Below the pieces are notes generated by a model, which worked only from the letters and a program-made list of their open reading frames with translations, had not been told where the DNA came from and did no database searches. From contig NZ_QDDL01000003.1 in NCBI RefSeq assembly GCF_003097315.1, forward strand, positions 248,001 to 312,000: DNA of 64,000 nucleotides, read 5' to 3'. Position 1 is the first letter of the stretch; each line of letters begins with the position of its first letter. The DNA comes from Pelagibaculum spongiae. GTDB lineage: Bacteria > Pseudomonadota > Gammaproteobacteria > Enterobacterales > Pelagibaculaceae. Below, one piece after another: positions 23,229-29,256 of this stretch. The position numbers and the translations under genes are program-made.

Positions 23229-23459
23229 CTACGGCTTAACTGTAATCACCTGAGGTGGTTGAACTAGCGTTTCATCAAACTGCTTTGGCGATTGCGCTTG
23301 GTCTTCACCAGGGATGACCAACTGGCGCTGTTTTAACAATCCATTACCTACCACCGGGCCGCGAGCCTCTGCTTTCAGATAATTGTCACTGTAATCTGGT
23401 AATAAACTACAACCTGCCAGTGTGACCAATGCCAATCCAATCAATGCTGTTCGCATCAT
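23229..23459 (-). CDS. bamC: Minimal BamC-like outer-membrane assembly lipoprotein
   Basis: Only 76 residues, against about 340-370 for full BamC. The signal ends in a lipobox (LAGC), and the mature N-terminus CSLLPDYSDNYLKAEA followed by a polar segment containing a VIPG motif matches the lipidated, unstructured N-terminal region of BamC, the part known to bind BamD. Both helix-grip domains are missing, and the downstream gap has no visible remnant. Its ATG overlaps the dapA stop by one base (TAATG). Position after dapA agrees with bamC in Pseudomonas. The name is therefore by position plus N-terminal resemblance. Confidence 0.7.
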   Translation of the reverse strand: MMRTALIGLALVTLAGCSLLPDYSDNYLKAEARGPVVGNGLLKQRQLVIPGEDQAQSPKQFDETLVQPPQVITVKP

Positions 23460-24340
23460 TAAGCCAATGCTCCTGATTCAACTAGTGCTTCTCTAACCGA
23501 AGCATGTTGTTCTTGAGATAACATGGTTAATGGTAAACGAATGCCATGACCCATCTTACCCATTTCAGCCAATGCCCATTTCACTGGAATTGGATTGCTT
23601 TCACAGAATAACCGTGAATGCAGTAGTTCCAGCCGCGTATTAATTTGCTCAGCACGTGCTCTGTCACCTGCTAAAGCTGCCGCACACATTTCAGCCATAT
23701 CATGTGGCACCACATTATTGGTGACAGAAATTGCGCCATTACCACCCGCTAACAAAAATTCAACTGTCGTCGCGTCATCGCCGGTGTAAAGTGCAAAATC
23801 ATTGCCACACAGTTCACGCAAAGCTGCCACACGAGAAACATCACCCGTGGCTTCTTTAATACCAACAATGTTGTCGATTTGAGCCAAACGGCCAACCGTT
23901 TCTGGCAACATATCGCAAGCGGTACGGCCAGGAACATTATATAAAATTTGAGGAATTAACGGTTCAGCTTCGGCAATTGCCTTAAAGTGCTGATACAAAC
24001 CTTCTGGAGTTGGCTTGTTGTAATAAGGAGTCACCAATAGGCAAGCATCTGCCCCAGCAATACGAGCGCTATGCGTCAGCTCAATTGCTTCATGGGTGGC
24101 ATTAGCACCAGTACCTGCAATAACAGGAACACGCCCAGCAGATTTTCGAACGACCTGATAGATCACGTCCATATGTTCACGAGGCGTCAGGGTTGCTGAT
24201 TCTCCAGTGGTGCCCACTGCAACAATCGCATCTGTTCCCTGCTCGATGTGCCACTCAACCAGGTTGTCTAACGCTGCTTCATCCACTCCACCCTGATCAG
24301 TCATCGGGGTGACCAGTGCAACGATACTGCCGGTTATCAT
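23459..24340 (-). CDS. dapA: 4-hydroxy-tetrahydrodipicolinate synthase
   Basis: 293 residues. DapA condenses pyruvate and aspartate semialdehyde in lysine and diaminopimelate synthesis. Visible signatures are [10 protein letters not shown] (residues about 43-52), [18 protein letters not shown] with the catalytic Tyr, and [12 protein letters not shown] with the Schiff-base Lys near residue 161. The gene is divergent from bcp and is coupled by a one-base overlap to bamC downstream. No lysine riboswitch was evident in the upstream region. Confidence 0.97.
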
Positions 24341-24562
24341 GCTATTACCCTCTATAGGTTTCCGACCGGCATGTTACTGCCCGCTAGTAGCAAACTCAAG
24401 CTGTCGGTTTGCTTTCTCTGTTAGCTAACGTTCAGTCAGCTGACAGGGCTTGTCAATCAATAATCGGCCAGAATACCTTTTGAAACTGTTTATCGGTTGA
24501 GCTGATGAAATCAGCAACCAGTGTTAGACTGGAGTTCTGATAATGAGAAAAGGAACTCATCG

Positions 24563-25030
24563 ATGTTAAAACCATTAGAAGTGGGTGACGTTGCACCTAA
24601 TTTCAGCTTGCTAGATCAAAATGAAAAAATGATCTCTCTTGCCGATTTTCAAGGGCAAAAAACACTGGTGTACTTTTATCCTAAAGCGCTCACCCCTGGC
24701 TGAATTATTCAAGCTGAAGGGCTGCGTGACAGCCATAAAGAATATGCCGATGCAGGCATTCTGGTGATCGGAATTAGCCCCGATGCACCCGCAAAGCTCA
24801 AACGATTTGAAGAAAAAAAATCGCTCAATTTCACCCTATTGTCAGATCAAGATCATGCAGTTGCTGATGCTTTTGGTGTTTGGGGGCTGAAGAAATTCAT
24901 GGGCAAAGAATATGATGGTATTCATCGCATGAGCTTCCTGATCGATCAACAGGGAAAAATAATGCAAGTGATGAAAAAAGTTAAAACCAAAAGCCATCAC
25001 ACTGACATTTTGGCCCTGCTAGAAGATTAA
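24563..25030 (+). CDS. bcp: Bcp-type peroxiredoxin with in-frame TGA at the peroxidatic position (probable selenoprotein)
   Basis: 155 residues if TGA at 24701-24703 is read as selenocysteine (U47). The start ATG has AAGGA upstream. The product is very close to E. coli Bcp (156 residues): the motif PKALTPG-U keeps PxxxTxxC with the TGA exactly at the peroxidatic Cys. The frame is then intact to the normal C-terminus (LNFTLLSDQDHAVADAFGVWG, KEYDGIHRMSFLID). The resolving-Cys position is Glu (QAEGLRD) and no cysteine remains anywhere. Thiol peroxidase, reducing hydroperoxides. The alternative is a recent TGC/TGT-to-TGA nonsense mutation. It lies in the Pseudomonas-like order between dapA and perM. 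Decoding needs selABCD elsewhere in the genome. Confidence 0.75.
24720..24734 (+). promoter_or_regulatory. Candidate bacterial SECIS hairpin
   Basis: GGCTG-CGTGA-CAGCC forms a 5-bp GC-rich stem. Its loop starts 21 bases after the TGA, and G is the second loop base. Both agree with published bacterial SECIS search rules (loop 16-37 bases after UGA, a G among the first two loop bases). An alternative pairing TGGCTG...CAGCCA would include the TGA itself. It is a short stem and unproven. Confidence 0.45.
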
Positions 25031-25094
25031 CTATCTTGGCATATCCGGTAGTACTAATAGTTCTAGCAGCGTCAGCTTTAATGGCATTACCAGC

Positions 25095-25132
25095 AAAAAG
25101 GGCTGGCACAAATTGTGCCAGCCCTTTTTTTA
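25095..25132. terminator. Bidirectional terminator between bcp and perM
   Basis: AAAAAGGGCTGGCAC, AAATT loop, GTGCCAGCCCTTTTTTT. A strong stem with A and T runs on both sides, serving the convergent bcp and perM transcripts. Confidence 0.93.
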
Positions 25133-25216
25133 TTTACACCGATATAACGTAAGCCTCAAAGAAACCGAGACAGGTATTCATCAGGCTTTGTGCTTTAAAA
25201 CATTGTGCTTTAAAAA

Positions 25217-26290
25217 TTAGTCACGCTCGACTGATCCAACTTCCTTAGCCGATGGCCAAGCGTTCATTATCGCTTTGACTAATGTTGCCAAAGGAATGGC
25301 GAAGAACACACCCCAAAAGCCCCAAACACCGCCAAAAATCAGCACCGCAGCAATAATAGCAATCGGGTGTAAATTGACCGCCTCAGAAAACAGCAATGGC
25401 ACCAACAAGTTGCCATCCAGCGCCTGAATAATTAGATAAGCCGTGGTCAACCAGTAAAAATCAGTACTCAAACCCCACTGGAAAAATGCCACCAACAACA
25501 CCGGCAAGGTGACAACTGTTGCACCAATATAAGGAATCAACACAGAGAAGCCAACCAGCACCGCCAACAGAAGTGCGTAGTTCAAGCCCATCAACGCAAA
25601 AACCACATAACTGGCGCCACCAACAATCAGAATTTCCGCCACTTTACCGCGAATATAATTACCAATCTGATCATTCATTTCTTCCCAGACTTGCTCTGCT
25701 AACTCATGGTGGCTCGGCATAAAACTGACGAACCATTCCATCAATAGTTTTTTATCCTTGAGCATAAAAAACACAATCACAGGAAGCAGCACTAAATACA
25801 CAACCAACGTTAGCAAATCAGAAATGGATGACAACGAAGTTGATACCAGCACTTGTCCGTAACTGGCCGCTTTTTCAGTAATTAGTTGGCTGACTTTTTC
25901 AATATCAGCTGGCGACATCACCATATGGTATTGCTGCATCAATTCAATAATCGATGTTTGCGCATTATTCAGCATATTGGGCAGCTCAGAAATCAATGCT
26001 GAAACTTGTCGCCACAATAACGGGGTGAGTACCGCGACCAGCAAAACCATGCCACCAAGGAAGGTTGAAAAAGCGATGGTCAGAGCAACATTTTTTGCCA
26101 CCCCAGCTTTGTGCATGCGACTAATTGTCCAATCCAGCACGTAAGCCATAATCAGCGCGGCAAAAATTGGCGTTAAATAGCGGCCCAGAAACAAAAAAGC
26201 CGCAAAGCTCATCAGCAAGATCATAATCAGGCTGACAGTTTGCGGATTGGATGACCAGCGTTTGTACCAGCTGGCAAACATATTGACCAT
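25217..26290 (-). CDS. perM: AI-2E family transporter (PerM-like permease)
   Basis: 357 residues with about eight hydrophobic segments in the PerM/YdiK pattern: two near the N-terminus, a long amphipathic central part, and a C-terminal bundle containing LVGFSVLIPYIGATVVTLPV and GGVWGFWGVFFAIPLATLVKAI, both typical of PF01594. Family members are proposed transporters, some linked to autoinducer-2 export or Na+/H+ exchange; the substrate here is unknown. The position beside bcp and near tusA/bepA matches Pseudomonas. Confidence 0.9.
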   Translation of the reverse strand: MVNMFASWYKRWSSNPQTVSLIMILLMSFAAFLFLGRYLTPIFAALIMAYVLDWTISRMHKAGVAKNVALTIAFSTFLGGMVLLVAVLTPLLWRQVSALISELPNMLNNAQTSIIELMQQYHMVMSPADIEKVSQLITEKAASYGQVLVSTSLSSISDLLTLVVYLVLLPVIVFFMLKDKKLLMEWFVSFMPSHHELAEQVWEEMNDQIGNYIRGKVAEILIVGGASYVVFALMGLNYALLLAVLVGFSVLIPYIGATVVTLPVLLVAFFQWGLSTDFYWLTTAYLIIQALDGNLLVPLLFSEAVNLHPIAIIAAVLIFGGVWGFWGVFFAIPLATLVKAIMNAWPSAKEVGSVERD

Positions 26291-27700: not shown

Positions 27701-27819
27701 ATGAATTTCCAGAATCGAAACATATCCGCAGCCGAATGCTGCTGGTTGGTTTATCATACATTCAGGAACCATGGGCGACCACGCCTGTCACAGCTGCAGA
27801 CACCAGCCGAGACTATTTA

Positions 27820-29256
27820 ATGTACAAACTGCTTCAATCTTTGATTCTATCCAGCACATTGATGTTGGCTACTTCGGTTCAGGGACAGGGAGAAAGTGAG
27901 CACTTCCCTCAGCTTCCTGATCTTGGCGACAGCTCTTTGGCGACTATTTCTCTGGAAAAAGAAGCCATGCTCGGCAGAAGTTTTATGCAGTCACTTCGAC
28001 GGCAATTACCTTTTGAAAGCGACCCCTTGATAGAAGACTATGTTGAATCACTTGGCTATCGACTGGCAGCCGGTGCCGATGACAAATTGCGTTTTCAATT
28101 TTTTGTGGTGCGTAACAAAGAGGTCAATGCGTTTGCTGGCCCTGGCGGTTATATCGGCATCCATACCGGTTTGATTACCACTGCTGAAAACGAAAGCGAA
28201 TTGGCTTCAGTATTGGCCCACGAAATCGCCCACGTCACCCAGCGTCATATTGCCCGTCGAATTGAAGAAAATTCTCAATTAAGCATTCCAGCCATTGCCG
28301 CCATTTTCGCCGCCATTGCAGTTGCTAGCACCAGTCCCGATGCAGCCAGTGCTTTGTTAATTGGTAGCCAAGCTGGTTTGATTCAAAACCAGATTAACTT
28401 CACCCGAAAAAATGAAAAAGAAGCTGATCGAATTGGCATGCAGCTGCTCACCAATGCCAAATTAGACCCTTCAGGAATGTTTCGTTTTTTTCAGCGGATG
28501 CAAAAATCCACCCGATTGTATAGCCGGGAAATTCCAGAGTTCTTGCTAACTCACCCAGTAACTGACAGTCGTGTTGCCGATGCACAAGCACGCGCCGCGC
28601 AACTCGGAAAACCTGATAATTTAAACAATTTATCATTTGAATTAGCCAAAGCTCGGCTGGAAGTACTTCAAATGAGAGAAGGCCAAGTTAAACAAGCTTT
28701 ATATAGCCATTACAAAGGTCAAAATACCGTTCAGGCAAGATATTATCGCGCCATGATCAATTTACGCCAAAAAGATTATATTAAAGCGATATCTGAACTA
28801 AGTGAATTACAAAAACAGTTTCCATCAGAAGTTTTCATTAATGTGCCATTAGCCACTGCATTAAGTAAAGATGGCCATCCAAAACAAGCATTATTATTAC
28901 TGACAGAACAACTCTCTTTAATGCCTGGCAACCATCCGTTAACCATGGCACTCGCTAGCTTATACCTTGAACAGAAAACACCAGAAAAAGCCAGGAAACT
29001 ACTGGCAAGCCATATTCGCAACCATCCGGTTCCGCGTGTATATCAACAACTTTGGTTAGCTCAAGGGCGTAGCGGAAAGAATACCCTGGCAAAAATCAGT
29101 CAGGCTGAGTTTTATGTGTTGCTCGGTGATTATCGTTCTGCTCGCCAGCATTTAAAACAAGCATTAAAAACTGAAGATTTAAATGCTCAATTAAAAAGTG
29201 AGATACAAGCGCGACTGACTGAAATTAACCAAGAAGCAAAAAAACTGAGGTCGTAG
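27820..29256 (+). CDS. bepA: Periplasmic M48 metalloprotease/chaperone BepA
   Basis: 478 residues from the ATG at 27820 (E. coli BepA 487), which opens a signal peptide ending near SVQGQG. The zinc site HEIAHVTQRH (HExxH) is at residues about 132-141, followed by the third ligand region KEADRIGMQLL. The C-terminal half is TPR-like (QARYYRAMINLRQKDYIKAI). BepA clears stalled outer-membrane proteins such as LptD at the BAM complex. It is divergent from tusA and sits in the same block as bamC. Confidence 0.94.
   Translation: MYKLLQSLILSSTLMLATSVQGQGESEHFPQLPDLGDSSLATISLEKEAMLGRSFMQSLRRQLPFESDPLIEDYVESLGYRLAAGADDKLRFQFFVVRNKEVNAFAGPGGYIGIHTGLITTAENESELASVLAHEIAHVTQRHIARRIEENSQLSIPAIAAIFAAIAVASTSPDAASALLIGSQAGLIQNQINFTRKNEKEADRIGMQLLTNAKLDPSGMFRFFQRMQKSTRLYSREIPEFLLTHPVTDSRVADAQARAAQLGKPDNLNNLSFELAKARLEVLQMREGQVKQALYSHYKGQNTVQARYYRAMINLRQKDYIKAISELSELQKQFPSEVFINVPLATALSKDGHPKQALLLLTEQLSLMPGNHPLTMALASLYLEQKTPEKARKLLASHIRNHPVPRVYQQLWLAQGRSGKNTLAKISQAEFYVLLGDYRSARQHLKQALKTEDLNAQLKSEIQARLTEINQEAKKLRS

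Follow-up and report, generated by a model that had tools for sequence, protein, structure and literature searches.

The closest described systems are peroxiredoxins that carry selenocysteine (Sec), and one of the surveys against which we read our locus is PMC1794560 (Zhang et al. 2006). Bcp-type Sec peroxiredoxins (Prx, COG1225 Bcp, motif TxxU; for example WP_011365628.1) are an established selenoprotein family according to passages of PMC9312934 and PMC13188914, the second of which names the motif PxxxTxxU. In extracts of the available surveys, 91 Sec peroxiredoxins were counted in 78 organisms (PMC5029168), and 12 were described with five Cys-to-Sec events (PMC1794560); the hosts in Table 3 of the latter, which covers selenoprotein-rich organisms only, are Deltaproteobacteria and Clostridia, all anaerobic bar one facultative host. 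Parts of the same survey report transfer of the whole Sec trait in Photobacterium profundum, and state that in organisms which decode Sec but lack FdhA, SelD itself contains Sec. A sel/grd cluster similar to the one considered below is described in an excerpt on Shewanella sp. MTB7 (PMC10059138). We found no gammaproteobacterial Sec-Bcp named in the portions of the literature searched, which is not proof of absence from print.

Here we analyse a gene of the gammaproteobacterium Pelagibaculum spongiae that was flagged in an earlier note, written from the sequence alone, as a probable selenocysteine Bcp. The gene lies in a stretch of 64,000 nucleotides (assembly GCF_003097315.1, contig NZ_QDDL01000003.1, positions 248,001 to 312,000), which we refer to as the window; the assembly comprises 4.99 Mb in 21 contigs and is 99.9% complete, with a contamination value of 0.78. 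We consider it very probable that bcp encodes a selenoprotein of the Bcp/PrxQ type, predicted to be a working enzyme with Sec47 as its sole redox residue, with Sec inserted by SelB at a TGA that probably replaced TGC or TGT in an inherited gene after the sel/grd cluster had been gained.

Set beside the known Sec peroxiredoxins, by description and as far as the cited extracts reach, the protein has in common with them the Bcp domain family, Sec at the peroxidatic position (predicted here), the motif PxxxTxxU and a Sec-decoding bacterial host; it differs in that its host order holds Alteromonadaceae- and Aeromonadaceae-type genomes, as judged from shared proteins, and in that it groups with their Cys forms. 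With the Cys-containing Bcp/PrxQ proteins (NF006960; solved structures 5enu, 5iph and 3gkn) it shares a whole-length match, the pocket residues and a neighbourhood common to many relatives, whereas a TGA stands in place of Cys47 and the protein has no other Cys, although 54 of 126 relatives are single-Cys proteins as well. Sec peroxiredoxins and glycine-reductase selenoproteins are already known; what is notable at this locus is that an inherited gene appears to have exchanged Cys for Sec in place.

A Bcp reading frame with TGA at the peroxidatic codon

The reading frame that starts at position 24563 runs through 46 codons, the TGA and a further 108 codons to a TAA at 25028–25030 (Table 1). 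With the TGA taken as one residue, the read-through protein matched Pfam AhpC-TSA (E 2.8e-35) and, over residues 3–154, the NCBIfam thiol peroxidase model NF006960, a Bcp equivalog model, with 238.8 bits against a cut-off of 140; among solved peroxiredoxins the best match was 5enu (E 5.6e-26), and 5iph, labelled Bcp, was matched at 5.1e-20. Pro40, Thr44 and Arg122, the peroxide-pocket residues of Bcp, are invariant in 126 aligned homologues and are all present here. Columns conserved in at least 90% of the alignment are retained on both sides of the TGA (16/17 before it and 41/43 after it), which, together with the TGA being the only lesion, rules out a pseudogene formed by accumulated damage. 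The description of a full-length Bcp of 155 codons, with no disruption apart from a single TGA at codon 47, is therefore confirmed. The other two matches to the protein within the same genome are only 25–26% identical, leaving this gene as the only Bcp found there. An Rfam search of positions 24000–25500 gave no score near the gathering threshold, and no relative turned up in the viral contigs searched. Annotation with the standard code would presumably split bcp or call the gene broken.

Table 1. Features of the bcp locus and of the sel/grd cluster; positions are those of the window unless a contig is named.
Feature	Position	Strand	Remarks
dapA-type gene, divergent neighbour	23459..24340	-	conserved gene order
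likely ribosome-binding site AAGGA	24550..24554	+	8 nt upstream of ATG; proposed from sequence letters
bcp (prxQ-type thiol peroxidase)	24563..25030	+	155 codons, one internal TGA, TAA end
in-frame TGA, codon 47, predicted selenocysteine at peroxidatic position	24701..24703	+	PKALTPG-U (PxxxTxxU); Cys column in homologues
SECIS-like hairpin GGCUG-CGUGA-CAGCC	24720..24734	+	16 nt past TGA; loop begins 21 nt past TGA
terminator-like hairpin, 16 pairs, 3' of bcp	25095..25129	+	consensus match
PerM-type membrane protein	25217..26290	-	conserved gene order
BepA-type M48 peptidase	27736..29256	+	conserved gene order
sel/grd cluster: selD, selB, selA, selC, PTS_EIIC_2 protein, trxB, trxA, grdA, grdC, grdD, GrdE/GrdG-type, grdB	contig C1, about 472600-487600		~15 kb; L134 9592-19054 and L140 1777-9619

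To place the TGA among relatives, we read the corresponding codon in 127 homologues at about 51–67% identity, 126 of which are in the alignment; the remaining row (L098), absent from it, reads TGT. The column is Cys in 126/126 aligned homologues, so the TGA does fall exactly at the peroxidatic Cys, as had been claimed. A check proposed at the same time, whether the TGA is conserved in homologues, came out the other way, with TGC or TGT in all 127 codons read; this does not refute selenocysteine, since a rare Sec conversion predicts exactly such a pattern.

Residue 52, at the resolving position (CP+5), is Glu, and Cys occurs nowhere else in the protein, both as the earlier note had stated. The note went on to call a Sec-Bcp without a resolving Cys unusual, and this judgement survives in part. 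The apparent in-place setting of the Sec does stand out. The missing resolving Cys does not, as the resolving column is without Cys in 64 of 126 homologues; nor does Sec-Bcp as a kind, being an established family in the passages of PMC9312934 and PMC13188914 cited above. A tie between loss of the resolving Cys and gain of Sec was considered and ruled out, because the loss is common among Cys relatives, including the 54 single-Cys proteins.

In the window, eight frames read through a stop with long open stretches both before and after it; bcp alone among them was recognisable by eye as a protein family. Elsewhere in the window, positions 955–1138 hold a perfect tandem array of 15.3 copies of the 12-bp unit CAGCAGGAGCGG, one frame of which reads as an Ala/Gly repeat.

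Selenocysteine decoding and the glycine-reductase cluster

The machinery for Sec insertion is encoded in the same assembly. One copy of tRNA-Sec (selC) was detected, with an Rfam score of 64.2 bits against a cut-off of 47 and an ARAGORN call of tRNA-SeC with anticodon TCA, and selA (504 bits), selB (262 bits) and selD (436 bits) each score above their own cut-offs; selB and selC, whose absence had been named beforehand as evidence against selenocysteine, are thus both present. In-frame TGA codons occur at the Sec site of selD (HGAG-U-GCK) and at the canonical Sec sites of grdA (CFV-U-TSAG; above cut-off) and grdB (U-GTC), the latter lying just above the cut-off of its glycine-specific model (602.9 against 602.2), and the partner selenoproteins found in this genome are SelD, GrdA and GrdB. 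Taken together, selC, selA, selB, the Sec-type selD and the TGAs of grdA and grdB support the selenocysteine reading that had been proposed for bcp.

Near selC we also found trxB, trxA, grdC and grdD, all above cut-off, as well as the PTS_EIIC_2 protein, while the GrdE/GrdG-type subunit of the cluster, at 566.8 bits, does not reach the cut-off of the model that it matches best. The grdC frame from 4541 on L140 begins to match the GrdC model at position 93 and is open upstream of its first ATG, indicating that the true grdC start lies upstream of 4541. A formate dehydrogenase H-type selenoprotein, another suggested check, was not recovered: the best TIGR01553 match reached 145 bits where the cut-off is 814, and the 12 listed matches are all free of stops. 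In having a Sec-containing SelD and no Sec formate dehydrogenase found, the genome resembles the FdhA-less Sec decoders described in parts of PMC1794560. Similarly, the clustering of sel genes with grdA, grdB, trxA and trxB in a gammaproteobacterium is shared with the clusters of Photobacterium profundum and Shewanella sp. MTB7, as portrayed in extracts of PMC1794560, PMC1242214 and PMC10059138.

We judge from its distribution that the cluster was probably acquired. Genuine GrdA was found in one of 394 sampled genomes of the order, which is the P. spongiae genome itself, and in 18 of 329 genomes of a related family that we take to be Vibrionaceae; the P. spongiae GrdA is 76–78% identical to six loci of that family. 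Two further genomes of the same order gave weak partial GrdA matches without the Sec TGA (L143 of G020 and L144 of G281), which are probably not GrdA. G+C content is 0.44–0.47 in the cluster and 0.44 in the window, so composition is no sign for or against acquisition. Transposase-like ORFs occur 4 to 9 kb before the cluster (L134, 16–999 and 4270–5367), with DDE_Tnp_1 above its cut-off and Y1_Tnp below.

This genomic setting bears directly on other readings of the TGA. One is that bcp is a young pseudogene of the strain, its catalytic codon struck by chance in a recent nonsense mutation. A single base separates TGC or TGT from TGA, only one genome is at hand, and a very recent stop would leave the remainder of the gene intact. 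If codon 47 were TGC or TGT, however, the frame would offer 57 single-base routes to a nonsense codon, eight of them to any TGA and only one to the TGA observed, in agreement with the earlier remark that a random nonsense mutation would rarely strike the catalytic codon. The genome moreover encodes the complete Sec-decoding apparatus and has a TGA at the canonical Sec site of three further genes, and the conserved columns kept past the TGA belong to the only Bcp found; a recent nonsense mutation is in our view very unlikely. A sequencing or assembly error, with TGC or TGT as the true codon 47, would be in line with the codons of all 127 homologues, but a lone substitution error would hardly be expected to fall on just the catalytic codon in a genome that decodes Sec, the gene is otherwise undisrupted, and the completeness and contamination values of the assembly speak against it; we regard such an error as exceedingly improbable.

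The read-through frame alone is silent on which residue is inserted, and UGA could in principle be decoded as another amino acid through a code change or a suppressor. Reassignment of the code is ruled out, as TGA still serves as an ordinary stop in 6 of the 33 genes in the window that encode 250 aa or more. Within the stretches scanned by eye, the internal TGAs of recognisable proteins correspond to known Sec sites or to bcp, and a tRNA-Sec is present, so that we attach virtually no probability to decoding as a residue other than Sec.

The hairpin downstream of the TGA

Measured against the bSECIS rules given in a portion of PMC13188914, the SECIS-like hairpin behind the TGA conforms in loop and stem length, in having G within the first two positions of the loop, in spacing and in energy, the last being taken over 45 nt. 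Applied to the other selenoprotein genes of the genome, the same rules pass selD and grdB and fail grdA; in an excerpt of PMC1242214, two of four known P. profundum selenoproteins likewise escaped the SECIS criterion. The rules also pass 63 of the 127 homologues with Cys, 55 of 151 Cys codons taken from genes of the window and 20% of synonymous recodings of bcp, falling to 25/127, 42/151 and 5.7%, respectively, when a G[G/U] loop rule is added. Too many Cys controls therefore pass for the published rules to serve as a decisive test.

Comparison with Cys homologues gave a graded picture. In a first comparison with 80 of them, 17 had a stem at least as good and 25 a fold at least as stable, and one had all five hairpin pairs at the same place. 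A second comparison returned 8 of 94 Cys homologues and a frequency of 0.0019 under the synonymous null, which fell to 0.0001 when a loop rule modelled on selD and on the E. coli fdhF element was imposed; its thresholds were chosen after the hairpin had been seen, and loci with a minus-strand match are omitted from the 94. For these reasons we rely instead on a test of the best allowed hairpin energy, in which p was 0.0085 against synonymous recoding and 7 of 109 Cys homologues had a hairpin as strong. None of 134 bcp codons has a stronger allowed hairpin, yet at least 12 of them have this same hairpin within reach, so its position is not specific. Folding the region alone gave a z of about -1, and when the six bases before the TGA were added, these paired with the 3' arm of the hairpin in a different best fold. 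We take the hairpin as modest to weak support for Sec insertion, and SECIS evidence alone would be compatible with the pseudogene discussed above.

Descent of bcp and proposed mechanism

The genes around bcp, putatively dapA, perM and bepA, are found in a shared order. Among 80 named loci, bcp has homologues of all three genes around it in 24 and of at least one in 43, within at most 3 kb of flank per locus. The block had been described as Pseudomonas-like; its best named matches, for dapA, bcp, perM and bepA, are instead from Alteromonadaceae, Aeromonadaceae and allies. In a tree of 127 rows, with a midpoint root for drawing only, bcp groups to the same side as 110 Cys rows (support of the split 100/95), and the labelled rows among these 110 are all from its own order. 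It sits there on a long branch (0.99), and the tree tool calls its exact place unsure. The long branch could hint at relaxed constraint; the notion that bcp alone is fast-evolving is not supported, since perM and bepA of this genome are likewise the most divergent rows, with dapA ranking 6 of 39.

Sec-Bcp is seen in one genome only, which is a point against our reading. The genus and family of the host consist of this genome alone. Of the 394 genomes sampled from the order, 374 gave some match to the Bcp protein at E <= 0.001, these matches being partly non-Bcp, and among the matches listed for the 394 genomes a stop was present in P. spongiae only; a narrow DNA pattern run over 369 genomes of the class likewise gave no second Sec-Bcp. 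The 18 grdA-carrying genomes of the related family provide a contrast, as their best Bcp match has Cys in 18/18 (codon TGT in ten and TGC in eight) where P. spongiae has TGA. No stop interrupts the Bcp match in any of them; in two, a further or incomplete Bcp-like match is also listed, likewise free of a stop, and the codon counts cover best matches.

From the tree, the gene order and this distribution we infer vertical descent of bcp with an in-place change from Cys to Sec, as far as sequence comparison can tell. A different origin, equally compatible with selenoprotein function, would be horizontal transfer of a ready-made Sec-Bcp along with the Sec cluster. The cluster does look acquired, given GrdA in a single genome of the order, the match of its TrxA to a clostridial-type model and the nearby transposase-like ORFs, and Sec peroxiredoxins are known from anaerobes in the sections of PMC1794560 cited. 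However, bcp is on contig C3 and the cluster on C1, the bcp neighbourhood is common to relatives, and bcp lies on the tree side of the Cys-Bcp proteins of related genomes, in a tree that holds no Sec-Bcp of other phyla; we therefore consider transfer of a ready-made gene unlikely. In-place conversion would have begun from a vertically inherited Cys-Bcp gene beside dapA, perM and bepA, in which TGC or TGT would have become TGA, presumably after the gain of the Sec and glycine-reductase cluster. It is likely, in our assessment, that after gain of a sel/grd cluster without Sec formate dehydrogenase an inherited housekeeping Bcp independently exchanged its Cys for Sec in place and became a thiol-free '1-Sec' PrxQ, with the hairpin arising within the old gene and other cluster-bearing genomes keeping Cys.

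In the mechanism that we propose, given the complete machinery, SelB with Sec-tRNA-Sec would insert Sec at the UGA, with the downstream hairpin helping. The Sec47 selenolate would then attack H2O2 or an organic peroxide by way of the Pro40-Thr44-Arg122 pocket, yielding a selenenic acid. As Bcp has no resolving Cys, an external reductant would be needed, and the selenenic acid may be reduced by an outside thiol, whether thioredoxin, glutaredoxin or a low-molecular thiol, in the manner of a 1-Cys enzyme.

An ordinary gene in a shared neighbourhood appears to have acquired Sec once its host possessed the machinery, whereas in 18 of 18 grdA-carrying genomes of another family the best Bcp match retains Cys. 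The locus offers a natural case for the origin of a Cys-to-Sec conversion and of a SECIS element, as well as for retention of the Sec trait without a Sec formate dehydrogenase.
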